A DNA stretch of 22,717 nt from a virus, in the IMG/VR virus record IMGVR_UViG_3300021197_000918, positions 1-22,717 of that record. One strand, 5' to 3'. The notes beneath the pieces are model-generated. The model worked only from the letters and a program-made list of their open reading frames with translations, did no database searches and was not told the DNA's origin. Shown piece after piece: positions 1-22,355 of the stretch (position 1 is its first letter; each line of letters starts with the position of its first letter). A program made the translations under genes and the position numbers.

Positions 1-790
1 TTTCTGATGACTTGTCCATCTTGGTTCCACCTACATTCTTCATTCCGTAAGCCCAGCTGGCTTCACGAATTTCATAATTGTCATATAGGTCTCGTATTTC
101 GGGACAGTCGTTGTACGACAATACCCAGCTGGTTCGTTCGCTGAGAATGTCATACAGGGCTCTGTGGTCAAAGCCTGCGTGCGTATTACCCCTATCACCA
201 TATAGCTTGTCTTTGTCGTCTCCAAGCAGGTATGGCGGGTCGCAATATAGGAATGCGTCAGGGTGTTTGTTAATTGAAGTTTTAAAGCCCTCGCAGCTTA
301 CTGCTATGTTGGGCTCTCGGAAGTTGTATATCCGGTCAATGGAACTATCAGTGAAGCGTTCATAGGATGCCCGCTTTGACCAGCCTCCAGAGAATGTTGC
401 CCCTGAAAAGCTGCTCCGATTGATAGCATAGAACTTGGCTGCGTTGGTGAAAGAAAAACGGTCGTCCTTTCTTAACTCATTCCGAAGGCACAAAAAGTCT
501 TCTTTTAGAAGCCCTCGCATTCCTTCAAAATCAGGATGTTCTTTTCGGTAAGAATCAGCGCAAATCGCCAGCAAGCGGGGGTCTGATAGCAGAGCATTCC
601 AGAACCACACAAGCGGTTCAAAGACGTCATAAGCGTGGACTGGCGTGCCTCTGGCAGCAACGGCAAGCTCCACCGACCCACCCCCAAGGAACGGGGAGCA
701 AAGCTCCTCGCAATCCTCGGGGATGAGTGGCAGAATGTGCTTTACAGCACGAGATTTACCACCCGGATACCGGAGTGGAGTCTTAGGCAT
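1..790 (-). CDS. dam: Dam-type DNA adenine-N6 methyltransferase (3' end cut by window edge)
   Basis: Methylates adenine in a short DNA target using S-adenosylmethionine; in T4-type phages this protects phage DNA or marks it for repair or packaging. Reading from ATG 790 the protein opens with MPKTPLRYPGGKSRAVKHI, the N-terminal YPGGK cofactor-binding motif of the Dam family, followed by PFLGGGSVELA. An NRSSFSG block and the catalytic motif IV, DPPYLLGD, appear in the middle, with LSYND after it. About 263 codons lie inside the window without a stop. T4 Dam is about 259 residues, so only a short C-terminal piece should be missing. The start overlaps the end of the gp32-like gene by 8 bases (ATGCCTAA), which suggests translational coupling. 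Family assignment is firm; the target sequence (GATC or other) cannot be told from this. Confidence 0.93.
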   Translation of the reverse strand, partial: MPKTPLRYPGGKSRAVKHILPLIPEDCEELCSPFLGGGSVELAVAARGTPVHAYDVFEPLVWFWNALLSDPRLLAICADSYRKEHPDFEGMRGLLKEDFLCLRNELRKDDRFSFTNAAKFYAINRSSFSGATFSGGWSKRASYERFTDSSIDRIYNFREPNIAVSCEGFKTSINKHPDAFLYCDPPYLLGDDKDKLYGDRGNTHAGFDHRALYDILSERTSWVLSYNDCPEIRDLYDNYEIREASWAYGMKNVGGTKMDKSSE

Positions 791-1535
791 TCATTAGCTC
801 GTTGAATGCACTATCTACGGAATCTCCACTGGTCTTGCTATACTGTACGGTCTCCGCAGAGTTGCCCTCAGCATCTACACCACCAGAAACAAACTCCCGT
901 AGCATCTGATCAACTTCTGCCGTAGTCTTTCGCTCAAAGAGGTTCATAATGTCCTCAATAGAGTCAAGATACATCTTAGTCGTATCCGCGTCCTCAGAGA
1001 GGGGGGACGGACGACGACGTGGCTGAAGCTTGGTCTGAGGGAACGACGCCCCGGGAGGCTTCCCGTAGTTTAGCACGAGATCAGTTCCCTCGTCAGTATC
1101 GGTGATATCACCGTAATCTGGGTTTAGCACTAGATTTAGCAGACTCTCGTAAGCCGTCTTGCCGTAACCCCACCAACGAACTCCATCAGTCTCCTCGCCA
1201 CGGACAAGAACCGGGCTAAAGAAGCGCTGACGGACGAAGAGATCCTTCGCCATCTTCTTTGAAGATTCGTCGTTCTTATCTGCACCCTCACGCCACAGAT
1301 TGGACGCAAAATCGCAGACGGGGCACGAGTCCCCGAAGTTACGCTTAGGGCAGAGAATACCACCCTTGGCTACGTTATAATGGAAATAGACTTCCTTGAA
1401 GGGGTCGCCGTCTGCGGTAGGCACCACACGAATTGTCTGGTTGCCGTCGTTTGGGCGCCAGAATGCACTCTTGTCGCCTCCCTTGTTCTGCACTGCAGCG
1501 AGCTTTGCTCGCATCTTGTCTAGATTGATTCCCAT
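783..1535 (-). CDS. 32: gp32-like single-stranded DNA-binding protein
   Basis: Coats single-stranded DNA during replication, recombination and repair. The 250-residue protein has His52, Cys62, Cys71 and Cys74 in the arrangement H-x9-C-x8-C-x2-C (CPKRNFGDSCPVC), closely paralleling the zinc site of T4 gp32 (His64, Cys77, Cys87, Cys90). The N-terminus (MGINLDKMRAKLAAVQ) is the short cooperative-binding arm seen in this family, followed by a KSAFWRP-type core start. The C-terminal tail, rich in Ser, Asp and Glu, is only mildly acidic. T4 gp32 is about 301 residues, so this is a compact member. The gene has its own consensus sigma70 promoter and a structured leader, and its last codons overlap the methyltransferase start. 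The likely regulation is autogenous, as in T4, but that is inference. Confidence 0.9.
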   Translation of the reverse strand: MGINLDKMRAKLAAVQNKGGDKSAFWRPNDGNQTIRVVPTADGDPFKEVYFHYNVAKGGILCPKRNFGDSCPVCDFASNLWREGADKNDESSKKMAKDLFVRQRFFSPVLVRGEETDGVRWWGYGKTAYESLLNLVLNPDYGDITDTDEGTDLVLNYGKPPGASFPQTKLQPRRRPSPLSEDADTTKMYLDSIEDIMNLFERKTTAEVDQMLREFVSGGVDAEGNSAETVQYSKTSGDSVDSAFNELMNA

Positions 1536-1596: not shown

Positions 1597-1625
1597 ATTA
1601 TATCAAATTGAGAGGAAAATGTCAA
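1597..1625 (-). promoter_or_regulatory. Perfect sigma70 promoter for gp32
   Basis: The coding strand carries TTGACA (1625-1620), a 17-base spacer, and TATAAT (1602-1597), a full match to both bacterial sigma70 boxes. The -10 box is also extended (TGATATAAT). The -35 box begins just 3 bases past the stop codon of the tubulin-like gene. The expected transcription start near 1590 falls a few bases before the leader hairpin, so the whole structured leader would be transcribed. Confidence 0.9.
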
Positions 1626-1628
1626 GAA

Positions 1629-2459
1629 CTATTTTTCTTGAATGATTGAGCTGTAGGCTACACAATAAACATAATCTTCGTCATATTGAGTGGGGTATAT
1701 CCCATAAGTGGTCTTAGTGTTTTTGGCGTTTTCTTTCACCTGTGCTATGACCCTTTTGTGGAGACCCCCTTGCTCTCTCAACTTTTCTTCATTGATAGCA
1801 TAATAATACACCTTTTCTCGGACGTTGTCAAGATTAAAAAATAAGTTTTCCTCTCCCGTGTCAAAGTCTACCAGACCATAGGAGACGATGCGGCTAATGT
1901 CATGGGGAGGGGAAATATTATCCATAATACTGTCTCCGTGGCGCAGTACGTTGATCATATGCATAGTAGGAACCAATAATTCGTTCAGCTGGTCATAAAA
2001 CCCAATAATTGGGAGGTCTCCTAGGATCTCTTCAAGGCGGGTATTGTCCACCAAAATAACATTTTGAAGCACTCCAGAGCGGGCATATTCTTGAAAAACA
2101 TTAAAGGTTACGCGCTGTTGTAAACGAGCGGTCTCACCGAGAAGTTCCACATCGGAATAGATATATAAGATGTGCAGTGAGCAATCTTTGATTTGTTCTA
2201 AAATTCTTAATGACGCACCAGAAGTAGCCCCGGAGCCTGCAACCACAAACAGCACATCGCCGCTGACGTCCTTGAAAAAGCGTTTCAAGCTTCCAAGAGA
2301 CTTCTCCTGCTCTTCTGGGGAAGGACCTTCCTTTAAGCCGTAAGTGCGGGGGGTGCGTTTAAGCCCCACATCCATTTTATAAACTTCATATTGGGGATAT
2401 TGGGAGAATCTCTCGGCGATTGTGCATCCCGCCTGCCCCAGTCCGATTATTGTTTCCAT
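1629..2459 (-). CDS. Tubulin/FtsZ-superfamily GTPase-like protein
   Basis: A 276-residue protein whose order of motifs follows FtsZ and tubulin. It begins with a beta strand and glycine loop IIGLGQAGCTIAERF (residues 4-18; the GQ is tubulin-like). A hydrophobic strand and Gly/Ser/Thr loop follow, VLFVVAGSGATSGAS (69-83), at the place of the GGGTGTG signature loop, which it matches only in part. Next comes a block like the FtsZ helix and strand before the guanine-binding Asn: RLQQRVTFNVFQEY, then NVILVDNTRLEEI. Residues around 155-180 fit helix H7. The catalytic T7 loop (NxDxxD) is poorly conserved, with only HDISRIV recognisable. The C-terminal part (KNAKNTKTTYGI-type strand, then YCVAYSSII) resembles the FtsZ C-terminal domain. 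No long C-terminal tail is present. It overlaps the polymerase gene by 13 bases and is probably co-translated with it. Fold assignment is fairly strong by eye; GTP hydrolysis and filament formation are open. Confidence 0.72.
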   Translation of the reverse strand: METIIGLGQAGCTIAERFSQYPQYEVYKMDVGLKRTPRTYGLKEGPSPEEQEKSLGSLKRFFKDVSGDVLFVVAGSGATSGASLRILEQIKDCSLHILYIYSDVELLGETARLQQRVTFNVFQEYARSGVLQNVILVDNTRLEEILGDLPIIGFYDQLNELLVPTMHMINVLRHGDSIMDNISPPHDISRIVSYGLVDFDTGEENLFFNLDNVREKVYYYAINEEKLREQGGLHKRVIAQVKENAKNTKTTYGIYPTQYDEDYVYCVAYSSIIQEK

Positions 2460-3637
2460 TCTCTCATATCTCCATAACTCTTGCCATATTTTACATTAAC
2501 TCCGAACTTTCCTAAAGCAGTATTTGAGAAATGTTCAACTAAAGTGTTGACTAGCGAGGCACACTCGCTGTCTGTCATATCTAGGACCACTTCATCATGC
2601 ACACAGAAGGCAACAAATGACCCCTTGTCTTGCAGGTACTTGTCAAGCTTAATCATTTGGCGAAGGACGACGTCTGAACAAGTGCTCTGAATAAGATAGC
2701 TCATCGCGTGGTGAGCGTCTGCGGGTATGGTCCTGCCAAAAGGATTCTTAACCGCACCGTTCTTCCAATACTTGCTTAGCACACGTTGCTTATCATATAC
2801 TTCCTCTGTCACCGTGTCCTGGGACTTGGGATTGTAAAGCCAAGCGAAGAATCTTTCTTTAACTTCTTCTCGGGTTGCGGTACCCTTATATACGTTTTGG
2901 CGGTTCCAATCATGAACATCAAAGCGTGGCTGCTCCATATCAGACAAAGCCAAGAAGGTTCGCAGCTCAGCGCCGTTAAAATCAAGCGAAACGAGCCAAC
3001 CATTGGTCGGCGTGACAACTTTTCGGAACTTCTTGTCCATTGTAAGGATTGGAAAGCTGTTCTTCTTGGTTGTCAGGCGACCAGTCTTGGTGCCAAAGAT
3101 ATTATAATCGCACGAAAGTGAAATCTTGCTCAACTTTTGCGTAAAGTTTCGTGCTCGCTTCTCGTGCATAACATCTCGGAGAGCCCAAGGGTCAATTTGA
3201 ATCTTCCGGTGCTTGATATCGTGCAAAACTTTCGTTAGATCTACCAAGAAGTCATAGTTTTCGGGTTTCTCGTGGGTCTCTAGGACGTGCTGAGTAATCT
3301 TGTTTCGCACCTCGCAATATTCTTGCAAGAAACACTCATTTACGAGGTCAAAAAAGCAGTTTTCGGTGAGGTCCACTTTAGCCGTCGTAAAGGCACGTAG
3401 GAACGCCTTCAATCTTCCATTGATGGTTTCCCACTCGTGAGCGACGTGGACCGGACAGGCGTCTCCTAGAGCCTTCTGGGCGTATAGGAATGCATACTCC
3501 ACATTCGCCCTGTCGCGAAGGAATGCAGAATAGTTCCAAGTGTGGGTCAACCCCTCGGGGATGACGTCAAAATGCAACTCATTGTTGCAGTAAACGCCGA
3601 CACACTCTTCTTTGTTGTCAAGTGTCTGAAATAGCAT
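2447..3637 (-). CDS. Family A DNA polymerase, short form without exonuclease domain
   Basis: Template-directed DNA synthesis. All polymerase motifs of the Pol I family are present in 396 residues: TKTGRLTT (about 183-190); motif A LVSLDFNGAELR with catalytic Asp219, Glu224 and Arg226; motif B REEVKERFFAWLY with the spacing Arg256, Lys260, Phe264, Tyr268, matching Arg659, Lys663, Phe667 and Tyr671 of Taq; an IQSTCSDVV block; and motif C VHDE with His347, Asp348 and Glu349. The N-terminal 180 residues show no 3'-5' exonuclease motifs, so proofreading, if any, must come from another gene. As I recall, phage RM378 has this split arrangement. The start is the ATG at 3637, which shares its A with the upstream stop (TGATG); a TTG one codon earlier is less likely. 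The next gene, tubulin-like, overlaps by 13 bases. Confidence 0.9.
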   Translation of the reverse strand: MLFQTLDNKEECVGVYCNNELHFDVIPEGLTHTWNYSAFLRDRANVEYAFLYAQKALGDACPVHVAHEWETINGRLKAFLRAFTTAKVDLTENCFFDLVNECFLQEYCEVRNKITQHVLETHEKPENYDFLVDLTKVLHDIKHRKIQIDPWALRDVMHEKRARNFTQKLSKISLSCDYNIFGTKTGRLTTKKNSFPILTMDKKFRKVVTPTNGWLVSLDFNGAELRTFLALSDMEQPRFDVHDWNRQNVYKGTATREEVKERFFAWLYNPKSQDTVTEEVYDKQRVLSKYWKNGAVKNPFGRTIPADAHHAMSYLIQSTCSDVVLRQMIKLDKYLQDKGSFVAFCVHDEVVLDMTDSECASLVNTLVEHFSNTALGKFGVNVKYGKSYGDMREWKQ

Positions 3638-4857
3638 CAATATGTGGGCTGAATGTTTTCGTTATTGAGTTGGTTGCTCTGCTTGAGCTTGATTTTAGCA
3701 AAGGAGCCCTCAAACTTGTCAAAACCTTGAAATTGCAAGTTGATATAAGAAAGAACATACCTAAGCTCAAACTGTGATAGCAGATCTCTAGCATCTTTCT
3801 TTATCGTAGACAAGCTTCCATGGCTCCCTGGCTTTCTCTTCTCAATATACCTTATATCAATGTATTTGTCAACCCAATATTGAAGGGGGTAGAATGTCTC
3901 TAGGTTTGCAAACGTCACAAAGTCCCGGCATATGACAGTTAGCCGTGTTTCGTCATAAACTTTTAGACGTGGAGTTCGGGAAACAAGGGCATTGTAGAAA
4001 TCAACTGCCATCCGCTGAAGATCTTGAATATCATTACCCCCTACAAGTTGAAAGTAGTTGTTTAAGACTGCCTGCTCACTATTCGCTCCGTATCTCGCCG
4101 AATAATTCAGCATGGCAGGGCTCCCAATATCTGCGGTGAGCCTCCAGGGAACAAATTTGTCCACAAAGAAACCAAACTTCTTAGCTGCCAAGACCAAAAA
4201 TGGGAAATTGGGACTGTTAAGGAATTGCTGCTTTTGGGTGTCGTCTGAAGGGTCCAGATCTGTCAAGTTGATGCTTAGTCCGCTTACCATCGGGCTACAC
4301 AAGTTGGAACAGATGTAAGATCCCTTGGTGACCGAAACGCCTTCAGCCGCTTTCTCTAAGAAATTAAAGAATACAGGGACAAAGGTTTTGAAATCCACTA
4401 TCTGATTGTCAAGTTCGGGAGTGACATAGACGTTGAGAAAGAGATCGCGGAAGACACTCAAATAGTTGGCGTACATTGTCTTAGGGTCTACAAGTGCGGC
4501 GTGTGCCTTGACCTCTGCCAAATGAGGGTCGTTCTTGTCCAACTTGCCTGCGAGACCTTGGAGCTTCATTTCTTCTACCAAGTCCTCAAACGCATCCACT
4601 ACAAAATTGAAAGCTGTCAACTGTTTTTTCGGGGCAGCTTGAGAGGATATCTTCTTGGCAAAAGAAACATTTGCCTGGATGATGTTATGTTGTTTATCAA
4701 TTCTACCATATAACATGCGTTCTGCAAACAAAAAATCACTCACTGGCTTGATATAGAGCGACCCATTGCCTTGAGGAAAGGCTAGTCTAGAATAGCTAAT
4801 GCGCTCAAAAAACAACTCGGCGATATTAAGATCGTTTCTCCCCAAAAACTCTGTCAT
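3637..4857 (-). CDS. Conserved-looking protein of unknown function, between baseplate and polymerase genes
   Basis: I do not recognise this 406-residue protein. It is rich in aromatic residues and looks globular and mostly helical, with no signal peptide, membrane segment, nucleotide-binding loop or cysteine cluster. It is coupled at both ends by one-base overlaps: its ATG shares an A with the stop of the 1209-aa gene (TAATG), and its stop shares an A with the polymerase start (TGATG). That makes it the bridge between the tail genes and the replication genes. The tight link to the very large upstream gene favours a structural or assembly role, such as a baseplate component, but the link to the polymerase allows a replication role. 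The coding region is certain; the function is not. Confidence 0.85.
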   Translation of the reverse strand: MTEFLGRNDLNIAELFFERISYSRLAFPQGNGSLYIKPVSDFLFAERMLYGRIDKQHNIIQANVSFAKKISSQAAPKKQLTAFNFVVDAFEDLVEEMKLQGLAGKLDKNDPHLAEVKAHAALVDPKTMYANYLSVFRDLFLNVYVTPELDNQIVDFKTFVPVFFNFLEKAAEGVSVTKGSYICSNLCSPMVSGLSINLTDLDPSDDTQKQQFLNSPNFPFLVLAAKKFGFFVDKFVPWRLTADIGSPAMLNYSARYGANSEQAVLNNYFQLVGGNDIQDLQRMAVDFYNALVSRTPRLKVYDETRLTVICRDFVTFANLETFYPLQYWVDKYIDIRYIEKRKPGSHGSLSTIKKDARDLLSQFELRYVLSYINLQFQGFDKFEGSFAKIKLKQSNQLNNENIQPTY

Positions 4858-7800
4858 TATTCTGTCCTCTCCGAAACTCCAAATAGCATATCCACAGCGC
4901 GCTCAGCTGCCGAACAACCTTCTGCAGGGGTATCTGTTTCATTGGGAGTGTTGAAGCCCAATGCGCTTCGCTGACCAGTGCCTTCAAAAATAGCATTAAT
5001 GGTGGTCTCAAATTTGCCAGCTTCTATAAACGACTGCACCCTATAAATGGTATGGTAGCCGCCGATGCCAAGCTTGTATGCAGCTGAGCTGGGCTGATTA
5101 GGCTGCCCAAGACTTCCACCTAGCCCTCCGGGATCTAGATACATCTTCATCCCAGGGACAAATTGTGTAGTACCAAACATGTTCACCTCAATGTCATAGA
5201 CATTCGCCAATATAGACAAGCCGGTAGCGTTAGAGACAACGTCTGTCTCAAAGCGTGACTCACGCAATCCAGGGATGTCCGTTTTAGTGAAGTTAACCTT
5301 CTTAAATATTCCTCGGTCTTTACCAATGGATAGATGGTATATCCCTTTTCTGGCGTCTGCTGCAGGATTGCCTACCAACTCCTGGGTACGCTCCGCATTG
5401 ACTGCATACAGGAGCATATAGTGGTAGGCATCATCACCCTCTTCTGGGCGCTGTAGTAATGAAAGTCCCCGGGCTAGTTGCTCATCAAAAGCTTGATCAA
5501 GGTTTATACGGGTAAACTGCTCCTGATTCGGGAGTATGTTCCTCTTAGACTGGAGCGTGTCTACTGATTGTCCGTTTTCATCTCTCGCTGCCTTGGCGGA
5601 AAAGAAGTTGGTGCGTAATTGCAAGTTTTGACGTGTAATATTGGTAAAACTCTGCGCTTGGTCCGAGAATACTGAAGTTAAGAGCTTGTTCGCCAAGTCT
5701 CGCACAAAGTTTAAGAAAGGATAAATGTGTCGTTCTCGGCTAATAGACTGATCCATGAACCACTCTATAAAGTAATTCAGAGAAATAGGAATATCAGCCA
5801 AATTGATGTTATAGGTCACCTGACTCTCTACTTGGGGCGGACGATCATTGGGCTCTAGGTTTTCTCCCCGTTCCAAAGCTTCAATGTTTCTTGATGTTTG
5901 GGATTCTTCGCCGCCTGTACGAATAAGCTTTCTATAGCTTATGGGACCCAGGATAAACTTTAGCTTTTTATGCATCTTTCCGATTGTATAGTTGGGAACT
6001 ACTGCGCCTGCATTCTCGTGATTCTCACTAATGTTACGAAGAGCCACTTCTAGCAGATCTCCAAAATAAAAGAATTGAACATTAACGTTCGGCTGAGCGT
6101 CATTGTAGGTTAGATCTGATAACCGGGAGAGCAGCGTCTCCTCCTGCCCATTAGACGCAGTAAGCGGCTGAATTCCTCCCACGCGGTCCTCCAAAGCACC
6201 TTCAGAATTGCGAGGGGCTGCATTAGAGAAATCAACCTCTATATCCCGACTTGCATCAACTGGGTTTCGGAAAATATTCCTGAAGCCGGTGCAGCCTTGG
6301 TTTAAAGCACCATAGTTGATATAACTCTCTAGTTCTAAAGTGGGAACTGATAGGTAATAGACCTTATCGTTTTGATACAATTCCTTTATTATTCTCTGCC
6401 AACTGTTGTACTTCTCTGTTTTAATTTGCTGCTCGTAATCACGAGTCAGATTGGCGATGTAGTCCTCATTACAGCCTTCGCCCGCTTCCACAAGCTTCTG
6501 TCTTCTCTCCAAACGAGCTAGGATGGCGTTCTCGTCGGCGAGGACATCGGAGTCGGCATCAAAATATGAGCCCTCTTGCCACGCAATATAGTCAACTTTA
6601 AGTTCTATGTTCCCAAATTCGTTAATCCCTATCTCGTGCTCGTAGGCTGTCAAGAACATAACCATTCGGGCATTTTCTACTGCCTTGCGCTTTACCTCTT
6701 TTTCGGTCGCAGAGCCCAGAAATACATCATTGCCCGGGGGCATCCACCCCACCTCTACTCTTAATTTATAGTAGTCGGGGTTCCAGACTGCATTAGAGGT
6801 TCTCTCGCGCAGTCCGATATTCACCAAGTCCACGTAGCGAAAGTCTTTAGATTCGCCGGGGCGTCCGGTGACAGGGACGGTCATCACCCGTAAAAAGTCA
6901 TCCATACTTTGGAAAAACAGTTTCAATTCTGCATAAATATCACGGCGAGCCGTAAAAGGGTTTTGCCCCTCTAGCTTCCAGTCAAAACTCCTAATACCTA
7001 CTCCGCGACCTCTCTCAATTCCCGGCGAAGTCATCGCTTGGATGGAGGCAGCATTCGTATATGCTTCAAAAGGTACTTCCTGCTCGTAAGGCTCGCCTTG
7101 ATCTCCGTTTGCGTCTATGTCGTAGAACACCTTATAAAGTCGTATCTGGGGAACAAGAGCGGATACCTCGGCGGGGAGCAGCTTTTCCATGTGTCGGACC
7201 TGCTCGCTAAAGAGCAGCTTGTTGACTATTGTGTCCGTATGTCCCTGGACCATTGTAAAATACGGTGTTCCAGATTGGTTAGTGTATAGAGGGTTCCTAT
7301 CCGTCTGATTCAATTTAGCCAGCTGGGGAAGATAATCCGCCAAGAAGGCTTGTTCCGCTAGGCGCTTAATTTGTGCGATTTTAGCCGGATCGCTGGGTTC
7401 TTCGCCTGTTTGGCAGGCGTCTTGCAGAACAAGGCGCTCGGCAATTATCCTCCCCTCTTCAGTATACAGCCCTGTCTGTACGTCAATCCCATCGGCGGAT
7501 GGGTCAAAAGCTTGTGCGCGTATAATCTCCTCATCTGCCTCAATAATGTACTGCCTAATTCTGATTCGCGCCAGAAGTGCTACCGCTCTCTGAAGCGCAA
7601 CCTGGTCGTAGAGAGTGTTTAACCTAGTGGTCTGAAGGGTTTGGGCGCCGACTGGAGATCCAGCCGAGGGCTGGATAAACATAAGATAATAGCCATAAAC
7701 AAAGTTCCTCGTCAGAAGGGACAGGATCTCTCTTTGATCTATCTCATTGGCGACATCACTATACCGGCGGAAGAAGCTACGAGTGAGATTTTTTAGGTCA

Positions 7801-8486
7801 CCACTCACTCGGTTAAGAGCAACACTTGCCTCTTCGTTTTCAGTTCCAAGGTCAAGAATGTTAAGGTTGTCCAATACATCGTCAAATTTAGTATTTAGAA
7901 TACCCGTTAGGGTACCCAAAGTGGGGACATTGCTATTGTCCTCTGATTGGTTCACAAGATCGGGCATTACGCCTCTTGCGCCGCCTCCGCCAGAGGGACC
8001 GGCTGCGACTCCCCCTCTCAAAATAACGTTACGATCAGATTCTGCCAACTGCCAAAAAGCATAGCCCCCCCTACCAAAGTTGTAAAGACCGGTAAGGTTC
8101 CCCCCACTTAGCCCCTCTGGGAATGAGGGGAGCGCCAGCTGAAAAGTCGCCCTAGAGTGCGTAGGCTGCAGATCTCTAGCGGTGGTCTTGTCAAACATCA
8201 CAGGAAACTGTGAATCCCTGGGCGGATACGGGGTGCCCAAGGTGTAATTGATATCAGAGGCTAAAAAGCTAGCACGGTTGGTTTCCACTTCGCTAACATA
8301 GTCATCATATGCGGCTCGGATTCCCGCATCAGTATAGAGAGGACCATATGTATCACGTATTCGTCGTTCTTGCGTGGCTTCTAGCTCGTCTTGCCGTTCG
8401 CCGGCTTCGCTCGCGGCGGTCTCAGCCTCCCGCTCAGCGACACGTTCATTCCACGAATTGGCAGATCCATTAAGAAAACCACTCAT
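4857..8486 (-). CDS. 1209-aa probable baseplate protein, candidate central hub
   Basis: The largest gene in the window. The N-terminal 70 residues are highly charged and helical (Glu/Arg/Ala-rich, probable coiled coil). A Gly-rich stretch near residues 160-175 (GPSGGGGARG) follows, and long mixed regions come after it. The last 120 residues run LGIGGYHTIYRVQSFIEAG then FETTINAIFEG. That wording is common at the C-terminus of phage baseplate-hub proteins, where a GxGGYY-type strand precedes a FETT strand. Its place, after tape measure, a 309-aa tail protein and a LysM protein, is also the usual place for the hub in contractile tails. It is far longer than T4 gp27 (about 391 residues), so it may combine several baseplate parts. 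No peptidase or lysozyme motif was seen. Hub identity is inference; a structural role is likely. It ends in a TAATG overlap with the next gene. Confidence 0.85.
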   Translation of the reverse strand: MSGFLNGSANSWNERVAEREAETAASEAGERQDELEATQERRIRDTYGPLYTDAGIRAAYDDYVSEVETNRASFLASDINYTLGTPYPPRDSQFPVMFDKTTARDLQPTHSRATFQLALPSFPEGLSGGNLTGLYNFGRGGYAFWQLAESDRNVILRGGVAAGPSGGGGARGVMPDLVNQSEDNSNVPTLGTLTGILNTKFDDVLDNLNILDLGTENEEASVALNRVSGDLKNLTRSFFRRYSDVANEIDQREILSLLTRNFVYGYYLMFIQPSAGSPVGAQTLQTTRLNTLYDQVALQRAVALLARIRIRQYIIEADEEIIRAQAFDPSADGIDVQTGLYTEEGRIIAERLVLQDACQTGEEPSDPAKIAQIKRLAEQAFLADYLPQLAKLNQTDRNPLYTNQSGTPYFTMVQGHTDTIVNKLLFSEQVRHMEKLLPAEVSALVPQIRLYKVFYDIDANGDQGEPYEQEVPFEAYTNAASIQAMTSPGIERGRGVGIRSFDWKLEGQNPFTARRDIYAELKLFFQSMDDFLRVMTVPVTGRPGESKDFRYVDLVNIGLRERTSNAVWNPDYYKLRVEVGWMPPGNDVFLGSATEKEVKRKAVENARMVMFLTAYEHEIGINEFGNIELKVDYIAWQEGSYFDADSDVLADENAILARLERRQKLVEAGEGCNEDYIANLTRDYEQQIKTEKYNSWQRIIKELYQNDKVYYLSVPTLELESYINYGALNQGCTGFRNIFRNPVDASRDIEVDFSNAAPRNSEGALEDRVGGIQPLTASNGQEETLLSRLSDLTYNDAQPNVNVQFFYFGDLLEVALRNISENHENAGAVVPNYTIGKMHKKLKFILGPISYRKLIRTGGEESQTSRNIEALERGENLEPNDRPPQVESQVTYNINLADIPISLNYFIEWFMDQSISRERHIYPFLNFVRDLANKLLTSVFSDQAQSFTNITRQNLQLRTNFFSAKAARDENGQSVDTLQSKRNILPNQEQFTRINLDQAFDEQLARGLSLLQRPEEGDDAYHYMLLYAVNAERTQELVGNPAADARKGIYHLSIGKDRGIFKKVNFTKTDIPGLRESRFETDVVSNATGLSILANVYDIEVNMFGTTQFVPGMKMYLDPGGLGGSLGQPNQPSSAAYKLGIGGYHTIYRVQSFIEAGKFETTINAIFEGTGQRSALGFNTPNETDTPAEGCSAAERAVDMLFGVSERTE

Positions 8487-13236: not shown

Positions 13237-16170
13237 TTAGTCATCAAATGAAGCGCCAGTCCTTGTAACAATAAAGTCTAGTGCAATAAACTCAATGGCA
13301 CGAGCTGGCTTGAGGTAGATCTTCGCGTATAGAATATTTCTATCAATCAGATCATCTGTGGTTGTAGTGCTGTCAAGGATGACGCGGAAGTCGGTGAGAC
13401 CAAAGCGTGCCTTAACATCAGCCAAGAAGGGGTTCACGGCAGACGTGAAGCGGTCCCAGGTTGTCTGGACATTGGGATCAAACAGAATGCCGTTGGCAAT
13501 TGTGGAGATCTCCTTCTTGATGAAAATCATTAGGCGTCGGACGTTAATGCGGTCTAGCGCGGAGCGCGTGACTTGTAGCGTCTTCTGTCCGAAGATTACG
13601 ATGCCTTCGTTAGGGAAGGTAGCAATCGGGTTAATGTTCACCGCGTAGAGGTTGTCGCGGTCCTTGGAGGTCAAGCGCATCTTCACACCAGTGACCGGAA
13701 TACCGGCACCACCGTTGGATAGCCCGCCTCGGACGAATCCTGCGGGAGCGAACCATAGCTCGCTTCTAGCCTGTGAGCTTCCGAAGGTTCCGAGAGCCGC
13801 CACTGAGGGTGGCACATCAACCAGGCGGTTGACCTCAGAATCTCGTATCGTAACCCAAGGGAAGAAGGTACAAGCGTAACTGGAGTTCAACGAACGCTGA
13901 CGCAAGGTAGTGATAGCCTGCGTAACATCGGGTCGGCGCTGGACGGCTGTCTCTTTGCCCTCCGTGCCTGCAGGCGTGTAGGCGTACTGAATGTCCACAA
14001 CTGCTAGAGCATCTGCACGATTCTCACAAGTCGTGATAAGCTTATCAGTTACAGCTGTTGTCCACACACCCGGGATTGACATGAGGTTTGTCTCAACAAA
14101 CTCTGGATCAGCAACGGTGTCAATCGCTCTACGCATCGTGTTGATACCGTAGTTGTTAAGCTCAGTAGATCCAGCTGTGCTCAAGAAGGTATTGTTGAAC
14201 GGCTCCTTCTCTGTAATGTCAAGTCCGTCAAAGCCTCCGAAGATTGGGGCGGTGAACTTGTCAAAGCCCTTCTCTAGAAGCGCACGGGCGCTATTCTTAG
14301 CCGTATAGGAGGCGCCACTCTTACGAGACCCAGAAAGATAATAGCAATTCTCCGCTGATCCCGTGATGATGAGGTCGTCCATAGAGAAGGCAAAAGAATC
14401 TGCTGTCTGAGTACCGGCGGCAAATGTCTGCGAGCTAAGAGGAGCGCACATATTGCGCACCATATCAACATAGCTTGGATCAAATTCAATGCTATCCGCC
14501 GTTTTGGTGGTCTGAATACCGAAGTATGCATTCGTGGGCGACGTTCCTCCGTCACTAGCGCTGAGACGCAGACGAATGGCTGGGAACAAGAAGGAGCCTG
14601 AGAAGTCAAGCATTGGGCTGCTTGGTCCCGTAGTACGAATAGTGTAAGTGTCGGCATCGCCCGTGGTTCCCGCAGGAGCCATTGTCTGACCACCATAAGC
14701 AAGGGTCTGCGCCTTGTCGGCAGGGTCGGGTGCCCCTAGGGGAATGTTGGGCAGGATGCGGGAGAGAGCAGGTCCCCCAGAACCGGAAGCGATGGCGAAG
14801 CCATTAGCGCGGGGTGGTCCAAAGTATCCGAAGGGGATACAAGCGGGGTCTGTACCGCCATTGGCAACGTTGTCATCCACTACCACGCGGACAAAAGCAG
14901 AGTTGTTGGGATAATCCTCGTACTCCCTCAGACGGCGCTCGGTATCACTCCACTGCACATATTTGTTACCAATCTTTCGGGCGATGTAGTCCGGATCGTT
15001 AGGGTTCAAACTACAGTTATCATAGCGCTCCACAACCTGGGGAGCGTTGTCGGTATCGGAAGCGCTTCTCAGAACAACAGAGAAGGTTCCATAGGGATTA
15101 ATATCAGGATAGGTGGGAGCAAGAATCTCCTCAATTGAGACTTTGAGGTTTCTTTGGACCCACTCGCCGTGTTCTAGAGCTACGAGCTTGAAGAGGCGAG
15201 CCACATTGGTAAGGTCGTAGCTTCCGCTAACGCCCAAGTCTTGTGATTTAAAGTAGGGGGTCTCGGCGTTCTGGAAGTTCTGACGACGATCGTCCCAGGC
15301 TGCCACGGCAGCACTTCCACTAGCTAGGGGGAGGATAAGTCCCAATGTGTTATCAGTGGTAATCTGGCGCGTAACCATCTGGTCGTAGGTTTCGCCGAGC
15401 CAGTATTGGTAGTACGCAGGAGAGCTAGAATCAACAATGGTGCTGTTAGTCTGTGAGGCGTTCGTGTTGAACACTTTACGAATATACTGCTCGCTATTGG
15501 AATTAAAATCAAAACAAATCTTTTCAGCGACATTCGTTGCGCTGCCTGTTAGAACAACAGCGGTGAACTTGCTATTCGTCCCCTGGGATTCGTAGAGGGT
15601 TCCTACTGATGCGGAAAGGTCGCCAGTGGTGCTACGAATGTTGCCACTTAGGGCAATAGAGGTTCCCTTGCGCAAGTACCACACGGCAGCCAGGGAGCCG
15701 GTAACTCCAGCTTGATACTCAGCAACAGTTCCAGAGTTAATCAGGAAGAGTCCATAAGCACCACCGTTGGTGGTTGGGAGTGAAGTAGCTCCGCCGGCAC
15801 TGGCGACCCAGCCAGCTTCACCAGCGGTTTCTGCATTAGCGTGCTGCGCGCCGAGGAGACGAACGATGGTAGCAGGGGCTTCGCCAGATGCGAGCCATGC
15901 CTTTGCAGCATAGGCGCCGTAAGTGGCGCCATCAAAGTTACCGTCGCGCCAGTTGTCACCGCCCTCTGCGCCGGGGTCGGGCGTTCCAAAAACATTGACA
16001 AACTCTTCGTATGAAGCAACCCTAACAGGGCGCAAGCCAGGACCTTTGCGAGTACGACCGAAGATGGTGGGTCCCAAAACGCGGGGATCCGCTGGTATTT
16101 GGGACTGATCAATTTCTCTCGTGAACACGCCAGGTGAAATGAACTTAAATTTTCTAACTCCACTAGCCAT
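13237..16170 (-). CDS. 18: Contractile tail sheath protein, gp18-like, enlarged
   Basis: Forms the sheath that contracts to drive the tube into the host. The N-terminus FKFISPGVFTREIDQSQIP and the nearby GPTIFGRTRKGPG, followed by ASYEEFVNVFG, are typical. The last 280 residues are the conserved sheath core: CTFFPWVTIRDSEVNRLVDV, PPSVAALG, WFAPAGFVRGG, INPIATFPNEGIVIFGQKTL, INVRRLMIFIKKEI, then a C-terminal strand ILYAKIYLKPARAIEFIALD. At 977 residues it is about 320 longer than T4 gp18 (659). The extra length lies in the middle, in Ser/Thr/Gly-rich beta-type sequence that probably forms surface domains facing outwards. AAGGAG precedes the ATG by 10 bases. A copy of an 11-base leader motif is found 63 bases upstream. 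Confidence 0.94.
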   Translation of the reverse strand: MASGVRKFKFISPGVFTREIDQSQIPADPRVLGPTIFGRTRKGPGLRPVRVASYEEFVNVFGTPDPGAEGGDNWRDGNFDGATYGAYAAKAWLASGEAPATIVRLLGAQHANAETAGEAGWVASAGGATSLPTTNGGAYGLFLINSGTVAEYQAGVTGSLAAVWYLRKGTSIALSGNIRSTTGDLSASVGTLYESQGTNSKFTAVVLTGSATNVAEKICFDFNSNSEQYIRKVFNTNASQTNSTIVDSSSPAYYQYWLGETYDQMVTRQITTDNTLGLILPLASGSAAVAAWDDRRQNFQNAETPYFKSQDLGVSGSYDLTNVARLFKLVALEHGEWVQRNLKVSIEEILAPTYPDINPYGTFSVVLRSASDTDNAPQVVERYDNCSLNPNDPDYIARKIGNKYVQWSDTERRLREYEDYPNNSAFVRVVVDDNVANGGTDPACIPFGYFGPPRANGFAIASGSGGPALSRILPNIPLGAPDPADKAQTLAYGGQTMAPAGTTGDADTYTIRTTGPSSPMLDFSGSFLFPAIRLRLSASDGGTSPTNAYFGIQTTKTADSIEFDPSYVDMVRNMCAPLSSQTFAAGTQTADSFAFSMDDLIITGSAENCYYLSGSRKSGASYTAKNSARALLEKGFDKFTAPIFGGFDGLDITEKEPFNNTFLSTAGSTELNNYGINTMRRAIDTVADPEFVETNLMSIPGVWTTAVTDKLITTCENRADALAVVDIQYAYTPAGTEGKETAVQRRPDVTQAITTLRQRSLNSSYACTFFPWVTIRDSEVNRLVDVPPSVAALGTFGSSQARSELWFAPAGFVRGGLSNGGAGIPVTGVKMRLTSKDRDNLYAVNINPIATFPNEGIVIFGQKTLQVTRSALDRINVRRLMIFIKKEISTIANGILFDPNVQTTWDRFTSAVNPFLADVKARFGLTDFRVILDSTTTTDDLIDRNILYAKIYLKPARAIEFIALDFIVTRTGASFDD

Positions 16171-20537: not shown

Positions 20538-22355
20538 TTAGCTGGTTGCGCCAGCCTCACCGAGGAGTCCACGCACGATGACGAGACCGTACATGTCAGG
20601 ACGGACCATCTTCTTCGCGTAACGGGTCATGACACCCTTACGCGGCACGAAGTCCTCGGGACCAAAGATGGTCGGAGTGACTTGTAGCGGGACGTAAGGA
20701 GCGTAAACAAATCCGCTCTCTAGGAAGCTTCCACCGCGGCGACCAACGAGGATCACGTTACGGGGGAAGTACGGGTCAACGTAGACATCCAACTTCTTGG
20801 AAAGCTGTCCAGTCTTCACAGCACCTGCGGTGCCACGGTCGCCGTCAACAGTGACGGAGGCGCGGAAGCCAGCAGTGAACTCAAGGATGTTGGCAACTTC
20901 AGGTCCGCAGACGATGAAGTTAGCGCCACCACGTAGAGTCTTGCGGTGAATACGAGCAGACACGTCATTGACTCGCTCTAGGCAAGTCTCGTACCACTCG
21001 GAGACAGTACCGGTGAAGTCAGGGGCAGCAGAGCTAGCTCCGATCTCCAGTCCGGTCTCAATGTCTAGGAAGAGACCCGGTGAGCGTGACCAGTAAAGCG
21101 TACCAGCGGTAGCACCTTGGATGAGATCGTTGAGGATCTCTTGGTCAATCTCTAGGGCAACCTGCTCTGAGAGAATGCTCGTAAGCTCAACCTCGGCATC
21201 AAGGTTGTGGTAGGCGTTGAGGTCTTGACCCAACTCCGGTGTCCACTTAGCCTTGAGCTTCTTGGTGACCGCTGTGACCGCGACACTGTCCACCTTGATG
21301 TTAATCTCGGGGATAGCAGCCGTGTTCTCCAACGCCCAAGCAGTTCCACCAACGACAGCGCCGACCGAGTCAGGAGCAGCACCGAAGTGGTCCACGCGGG
21401 GCCAAACCAAGTTGTTGAAGTCTTGCAGCTTAACGTTGCCGAAAGACTTGACAATAGCGTCACCCATGTTAGCAGCGGAGTGACAGCCACCGTTAGAACC
21501 GGTACCCGTGAAGACCAAGAGTAGATCGTTCTGTGCTGAACCACTGTATCCAGTGAGACGACGAACAAGACGGGCGCCAATCGCGTGGTTACCAGCGGTA
21601 CTGGAACCGGAGAAGATGTTGTTTCCACCGGCTGCATAGCCAGCGGAAGAGGACACCTGCACGGCGATAAAGTCATCAACGTTAACACCACTCAATATGC
21701 TCTTAAAGTTAGTGAGCTTGATAACGGAAACAGCAGTAGACCCGGACACGAAATCAGCATCAAAGCGGCAAAGCTTGTCAAGAGCCACGCTAGAACCATA
21801 AATACCAGACAAGTGCTCAGAAGCAACTGAACCGGCTTGGTACAGAGCATTGGTGGAACCAGTCGGTGAAGAGTAACCGTTGTTTAGGGCATACGGTCCC
21901 GCTTCGGCGTTATCACTAGTACCAAGGGTACCTAGGTCAATTCCGCCAGTGATCTGGCTACCGACCACACCACCACCGTAGACTGACTCACCAGCGTCGT
22001 AACCGAGACGGTCAGTAGCTGTGGTGAAGTCTAGGAAGAAGATTAGACCGGAGGGTAGGCTCATGGGCTGAACGGACACGAGGTCGTTAGCAATGAGTCC
22101 ACCGAATACACGGCGAACGATGGGGAACGCTACAGCGGCAAAGCCCTGAACGTCTCCACCCGCCATGGTGGAAGCAGCCTCACGTAGAAGCTCCTTGGCT
22201 TGGTTCTCTAGTAGACGAGCCATGCCATTTTTTGAGTTATCGTCGTTGAGACCTTCTAGAAGACCAGTCTTCTCCCACTTGGAGAGAAGCGCAGCGCCTT
22301 CCTTCTTAAGGTCACGGTTAACGATACCTTCAGTTAATTTATTTAATACAGACAT
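20538..22355 (-). CDS. 23: Major capsid protein, gp23-like
   Basis: Forms the head shell. The 605-residue protein (T4 gp23: 521) has the family blocks FPIVRRVFGGLIANDLVSVQ then PMSLPSGLIFFLDF (about 76-110), a Gly/Ser-rich middle, AKWTPELGQDLNAYHNLDAE with LTSILSEQVALEIDQEIL, then INDLIQGATAG, RGGANFIVCGPEVANILEFT, and the C-terminal FVPRKGVMTRYAKKMVRPDM. A likely prohead-protease site of the T4 (L/I)xE type is LLRE before AAST, after Glu59; the first 59 residues, charged and helical, would then be removed during head maturation. The ATG at 22355 has the strongest ribosome site in the window (AAGGAGGTGAT), fitting very high expression. It follows the scaffold gene, as in T4. Confidence 0.94.
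   Translation of the reverse strand: MSVLNKLTEGIVNRDLKKEGAALLSKWEKTGLLEGLNDDNSKNGMARLLENQAKELLREAASTMAGGDVQGFAAVAFPIVRRVFGGLIANDLVSVQPMSLPSGLIFFLDFTTATDRLGYDAGESVYGGGVVGSQITGGIDLGTLGTSDNAEAGPYALNNGYSSPTGSTNALYQAGSVASEHLSGIYGSSVALDKLCRFDADFVSGSTAVSVIKLTNFKSILSGVNVDDFIAVQVSSSAGYAAGGNNIFSGSSTAGNHAIGARLVRRLTGYSGSAQNDLLLVFTGTGSNGGCHSAANMGDAIVKSFGNVKLQDFNNLVWPRVDHFGAAPDSVGAVVGGTAWALENTAAIPEINIKVDSVAVTAVTKKLKAKWTPELGQDLNAYHNLDAEVELTSILSEQVALEIDQEILNDLIQGATAGTLYWSRSPGLFLDIETGLEIGASSAAPDFTGTVSEWYETCLERVNDVSARIHRKTLRGGANFIVCGPEVANILEFTAGFRASVTVDGDRGTAGAVKTGQLSKKLDVYVDPYFPRNVILVGRRGGSFLESGFVYAPYVPLQVTPTIFGPEDFVPRKGVMTRYAKKMVRPDMYGLVIVRGLLGEAGATS

Follow-up and report, generated by a model that had tools for sequence, protein, structure and literature searches.

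A predicted tubulin/FtsZ-like protein family encoded beside the DNA polymerase of uncultured T4-related phages

The locus and its genes

The window—the whole stretch of DNA analyzed here—is a virus record of 22.7 kb and is probably a fragment. Its setting is that of a T4-type virion, as a preliminary description of this DNA had proposed: the window encodes a gp23 capsid protein (E 1.5e-70), a tail sheath protein (E 9.8e-66), and baseplate genes. By T4-type standards, both the tail sheath (13237–16170, 977 aa) and the major capsid protein (20538–22355, 605 aa) are long, and the capsid family match of the latter lies mainly over residues 343 to 589. The gene under study, named tub here, is located on the minus strand together with the following neighbors.

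783..1535, minus strand: gp32-like single-strand DNA-binding protein (PF08804, E 2.4e-16)
1629..2459, minus strand: tub, predicted Tubulin/FtsZ-superfamily gene, 276 aa (ATG at 2459, stop codon at 1629–1631)
2447..2459, minus strand: overlap of 13 bases between the 3′ end of polA and the 5′ end of tub, from the coordinates of the reading frames
2447..3640, minus strand: polA, short family A DNA polymerase, 397 aa (Pfam DNA_pol_A, E 1.7e-15)
3637..4857, minus strand: orf406, kept upstream of polA, an open reading frame without a family match

The 276-aa reading frame is real and is coded by the minus strand, a detail missing from the preliminary description; read forward, positions 1629 to 2459 contain many stop codons. 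The 13 bases reported as common to tub and the family A polymerase gene are found where the two frames overlap, and the gp32 gene is indeed the neighbor of tub. After gp32 follows a D12-class (Dam-like) adenine methyltransferase gene (2–790), which is present in some relatives only and at a varying distance from gp32. Upstream of polA, orf406 and a 1209-aa protein (4857–8486) are syntenic in nearly all relatives. Divergence in this upstream region is fast, with a median identity of 24% for orf406 and 21% for the 1209-aa protein, and family searches with orf406 gave no match.

Sequence searches and predicted fold

Single-sequence and family searches in Pfam, PHROGs, NCBIfam, PADLOC, and PDB sequences yielded nothing significant for tub. 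The comparison with Pfam Tubulin reached E 0.11 and 13.2 bits—below the PF00091 cut-off of 33 bits—and aligned residues 4 to 20 only, and the best member of the short family reached E 0.0055. PHROGs contained no meaningful match, the NCBIfam ftsZ equivalog TIGR00065 did not match tub up to E 0.1, and tblastn of tub or two other members against 50,697 phage records returned no significant match. Weak matches to an RNA helicase, an alcohol oxidase, and TrkA_N were rejected as probably due to the GxGxxG start or to chance. Relatives in IMG/VR number 36 by a single-sequence scan and at least 546 stretches by an alignment scan; conservation is counted below over 108 full-length tub homologues, and gene order over 110 unique loci.

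The AlphaFold2 model of tub, computed with 28 homologues, has a pLDDT of 93.7 and a pTM of 0.91. As judged by Foldseek against the PDB, the top matches of this model are FtsZ and TubZ (E 2.5e-13), and all of its best structural matches are tubulin/FtsZ chains. VIA-align over residues 1 to 276 gives Z scores of 24.8 and 24.0 for CetZ, 23.4 for TubZ, and about 22 for FtsZ, the best match (Z 24.8) comprising 254 residues at an rmsd of 2.8. The best viral match is an uncultured Caudovirales phage FtsZ (A0A6J5RW92 in BFVD) with a TM score of 0.80 by query length; PhuZ of phage Noxifer is also among the viral matches, at a lower level (Foldseek E 6.5e-8). In addition, a profile–profile comparison of the 108 homologues with 11 FtsZ sequences yields P 2.3e-4 over 173 collinear columns; as controls, five unrelated families encoded at these loci give P 0.2–0.7. 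The model features both helix H7 and the second domain.

1941..2000, minus strand: helix H7, residues 154–173, a helix in the model, with Y155 and N159 (equivalents of E. coli F182 and N186)
1632..1892, minus strand: C-terminal domain, residues 190–276, without a tail in the AlphaFold2 model

The fold check suggested at the outset, a high-probability fold match to FtsZ, CetZ, and TubZ, therefore came out positive. tub is placed in the superfamily because of the predicted fold, the profile alignment, and the conserved pocket residues described below; together, these support a tubulin/FtsZ fold at the level of a model. The idea of a diverged tubulin/FtsZ-like protein coupled to a phage polymerase is borne out by the fold match and by the linkage of the genes. 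As for the statement that no tubulin was known in a T4-type setting, none of the cultured phage records searched matches by sequence, but many uncultured T4-type contigs do. No report of the short family was found in the literature searched, the coverage of which was incomplete, with most subscription papers outside it. The short tub family joins a known superfamily as a new family, and its setting is new as well: an uncatalogued tubulin/FtsZ relative is carried by hundreds of T4-related phages, all of them seen in metagenomes only.

Nucleotide pocket, T7/H8 segment, and conserved surface

The motifs GLGQAG, GSGATSG, RLQQR, and NVILVDNTRLEEI are present in the order expected for FtsZ and align to its T1, T4, H5, and T6 in the profile–profile comparison. 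The parts of the protein considered here are as follows.

2427..2450, minus strand: T1 loop, residues 4–11 (IIGLGQAG), aligned to FtsZ T1
2208..2240, minus strand: degenerate T4 phosphate loop, residues 74–84 (AGSGATSGASL), from conservation and profile alignment
2073..2093, minus strand: end of helix H5, residues 123–129 (QEYARSG), candidate partner surface
2043..2045, minus strand: Asn139 of T6, matching N165 of E. coli FtsZ in the profile alignment, kept in 104/108
1893..1940, minus strand: segment 174–189, where FtsZ has its T7 loop and H8, modeled without a helix and free of any conserved acid

The glycines of the T1 loop are kept almost throughout the homologues (G6 in 105/108, G8 in 108/108, and G11 in 105/108). 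The same holds for the Asn pair of the guanine site, where N139 and N159, the latter corresponding to E. coli N186, each occur in 104 of the 108; residue 155 is Y, H, or F in 97. The conservation of these glycines and Asn residues, taken with the structural matches, shows that the resemblance exceeds chance. The spacing of residues 155 and 159—an aromatic residue and, four residues on, an Asn—is that of Tyr224 and Asn228 of β-tubulin. The T4 loop is altered across the homologues: the signature [SAG]GGTG[SAT]G is absent, and a consensus GSGxISGA occupies the aligned position. Because of this degeneracy, nucleotide binding by tub itself is uncertain.

The alteration of the T7 loop goes further than had been claimed. 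Segment 174–189 is the least conserved of the parts measured (0.43 versus 0.58 overall), no acid in it exceeds 65%, and neither the NxDxxD motif of FtsZ T7 nor helix H8 is found. The protein ends six residues past the last strand of the model and, hence, is taken to be without a tail; the C-terminal linker and conserved tail peptide of FtsZ are absent. The strictest block of the family is Q123-E-Y-A-R127-S128, in which Q123, R127, and S128 are each invariant (108/108).

Linkage to polA and gp32

Nearly all of the 110 unique loci share one gene order on one strand: a gp53-like gene, the large upstream protein, orf406, polA, tub, and gp32. The spacing between polA and tub is −13 in 28 loci, −4 in 20, and −1 in 9 (57 loci together), and a gap of more than 250 bases occurs in 23 of the 110. 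In a sample selected through the polymerase instead of tub, and ranked by closeness to a tub-bearing member, tub is located just downstream of polA in 78 of 78 testable loci, two further contigs ending too early to test. The coupling of tub to the polymerase is thus far stronger than a single genome could show. Pairwise identity of tub tracks that of polA (rho 0.53) and gp32 (rho 0.55) above that of the upstream virion genes (rho 0.28–0.36)—values given without a permutation test, the faster-evolving virion genes giving a noisier rho. Two promoter sites accompany these genes.

1597..1625, minus strand: sigma-70-type promoter of perfect consensus (TTGACA-17-TATAAT, extended −10), between tub and gp32
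3844..3872, minus strand: near-consensus promoter (11/12) upstream of polA, inside orf406

The site between tub and gp32 recurs with 11–12 of 12 consensus positions in 55 of 99 relatives versus 1 of 99 shuffled sequences, and the site upstream of polA in 40 of 79 relatives versus 1 shuffled. Promoter-like sites are also frequent within the polA–tub body. Given promoters ahead of polA and between tub and gp32, tub is probably cotranscribed with polA, and gp32 can start afresh; this division, with tub in the polA transcription unit and gp32 separately startable, is suggestive only, in view of those further sites.

A second FtsZ-like family

A further FtsZ-like family, A2 (alignment; L116:1027–2121, minus strand), comprises proteins of about 345 to 390 aa; T4-type phages represented by at least 107 IMG/VR stretches encode it. 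The T4 (GGGGGTGS) and T7 (FDSKDL) motifs of A2 are intact, and an acidic motif at the N-terminus (DDFDFVEAYDDDP-like) is conserved. Both Asp residues of T7 are kept in 25 of 25 aligned members, and the T7 region is well conserved, unlike that of tub. The family matches CetZ/FtsZ in the PDB (E 1.8e-9) and TIGR00065 with E 9.5e-8, which is below the family cut-off. In the large phages G027 and G029, the A2 gene follows the capsid gene and precedes the neck and sheath genes. Profile comparison of tub with A2 is weak (P about 0.03), so close kinship of the two is not claimed.

The polymerase and relatives lacking tub

The 397-aa polymerase is predicted with a pLDDT of 93.7 and matches a Klenow-type core with Z 25.7; in our reading, a protein of this length could hardly accommodate a proofreading exonuclease domain, and not a full one. 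A family A match occurs in all 14 large related records and a family B match in none of them, an informative absence, as two cultured relatives did give a family B match when searched in this way. The short family A enzyme is the only DNA polymerase recognized in these 14 records.

A cultured carrier of tub was sought via the capsid and the polymerase. The profiled regions of Flavobacterium phage immuto, Microcystis phage Mel-JY01, and Rhodothermus phage RM378 are without tub, and a whole-record search of the three with Pfam Tubulin, a weak model for the tub family, gave no match. In phage immuto, polA is followed by two small genes, SSB, recombinase, exonuclease, and helicase, without tub; G027 and G029, which carry A2 only, are likewise without it between polA and gp32. 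The slot next to gp32, hence, varies between lineages and is fixed for tub in one of them. In related phages the polymerase does without tub, so the fold is no general requirement of this polymerase type. The only match in a cellular genome, the candidate division WOR-3 MAG CP070664.1 (L208), carries orf406–polA–tub–gp32–recombinase. It was not taken as evidence for a WOR-3 host: the match is probably a mis-binned short phage piece beside an N run in a scaffolded assembly.

Proposed function and alternatives

On balance, tub probably represents a new, catalytically degenerate tubulin/FtsZ family that serves phage replication, most plausibly as a GTP/GDP-binding accessory or anchor and not as a dynamic filament. 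The carriers are T4-related myoviruses whose recognized DNA polymerase is the short family A enzyme. tub keeps the guanine-nucleotide pocket, consisting of the T1 loop, the T6 Asn, and the aromatic residue and Asn of H7, and has lost H8 and the catalytic acids of T7, which one subunit supplies to the nucleotide of the next. Such a protein could bind GTP or GDP and would not form a GTP-hydrolysing, dynamic filament of the FtsZ type; it may act as a monomer, a dimer, or a static polymer touching the polymerase/gp32 machinery, with the invariant QEYARSG surface as candidate contact. In this way, tub may serve to anchor the replication site or to position it; alternatively, it may regulate the polymerase, the guanine nucleotide acting as a signal. 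From the place of tub directly after the polymerase we infer work in phage replication, although adjacency of genes can last without physical contact. That tub is a dedicated subunit or a guanine-nucleotide-sensing regulator of the viral DNA polymerase is possible and rather doubtful; to our knowledge, neither role is known for any tubulin or FtsZ relative.

tub could instead form a PhuZ/TubZ-type cytomotive or scaffold filament that manages without the usual T7 catalysis and centers, anchors, or segregates replicating DNA, being made together with the polymerase so that the filaments arise at replication sites. TubZ is among the best structural matches and PhuZ among the viral ones, the guanine site is kept, and the setting is one of replication. 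However, the T7/H8 segment that is well conserved in A2 is the least conserved part of tub and holds no conserved acid, and the protein stops just past its last strand without a TubZ/PhuZ-like tail. C-terminal tails matter in TubZ and PhuZ filaments. None of the genes identified encodes a TubR-type partner adaptor. We regard filaments of this kind, and their assembly at replication sites, as somewhat improbable; they keep a minor share of the probability, since the protein could polymerize in a different geometry. A two-tubulin system, in which the short tub caps or regulates polymers of the catalytically intact A2, draws on the intact T4 and T7 motifs of A2 and on the presence of tub in 7 of 21 A2-bearing records. 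One 166-kb genome carries both genes. The reverse count is 1 of 16 records chosen for tub, and in four near-complete tub genomes no other tubulin is recognizable. As the co-occurrence is partial and no further tubulin is recognizable in these four genomes, A2 is no obligate partner. The counts do not support a fixed pairing, the two may pair occasionally, and capping or regulation of A2 by tub appears highly improbable.

Poisoning of the host Z-ring by tub, as a takeover factor that mimics FtsZ in degenerate form and joins the ring, has precedent insofar as phage inhibitors of FtsZ are known—lambda Kil (PMC3961180) and P1 Icd (PMC11897509)—and the predicted fold of tub resembles FtsZ. The known inhibitors are, however, small, unrelated proteins. 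Unlike typical host-takeover genes, tub has a constant place among the replication genes and is present throughout the sampled clade, and its divergence tracks polA and gp32. Such constant membership of the replication module makes poisoning of host FtsZ quite unlikely. Among the roles that the preliminary description had proposed, the positioning of replicating DNA stands as a possibility; the positioning of capsids and the poisoning of host FtsZ are unsupported in view of the fixed place between polA and gp32, the co-variation with these genes, and the loss of the polymer-catalytic face.

The linkage suggests a tubulin-type protein built into a viral DNA-copying machine. With the tub family one can test directly whether a tubulin fold is able to function when GTP hydrolysis is not coupled to a polymer, and how the T4-related carriers organize replication. 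Together, tub and A2 suggest that tubulin relatives are commoner in T4-type phages than catalogues show.

Comparison with known systems

tub resembles the FtsZ/CetZ/tubulin proteins (PF00091) in a full-length match of the predicted fold including H7 and the second domain, and in the guanine-site residues of T1, T6, and H7. It differs from them by being shorter than all (276 aa), by a degenerate T4, by the lack of the T7 acids, H8, and C-terminal tail peptide, and by an identity of 10 to 16%, far under the Pfam cut-off.

The phage tubulins on record come mostly from jumbo phages that form a nucleus and from partition systems. PhuZ of jumbo phages and TubZ of plasmid and phage partition share with tub that they are tubulin relatives, encoded by phages, with a matching fold. 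In contrast, tub has no sequence-family match to them, belongs to a different phage lineage, is coupled to a DNA polymerase gene, and is without the C-terminal tail and T7/H8. Two kinds of FtsZ/tubulin relatives are described in jumbo-phage reviews (PMC7824862), and PhuZ homologues were reported in work on huge phages (PMC7162821).

The uncultured Caudovirales phage FtsZ A0A6J5RW92 is unlike tub in length (452 aa) and shares 15% identity with it. T4 gp59, a helicase loader whose gene neighbors gene 32, shares with tub this position only; it is all-helical, whereas tub has an alpha/beta tubulin fold in the model. A2 belongs, like tub, to the tubulin superfamily and occurs in related T4-like phages, sometimes in the same genome; unlike tub, it is longer, carries intact motifs, and occupies a different gene place.
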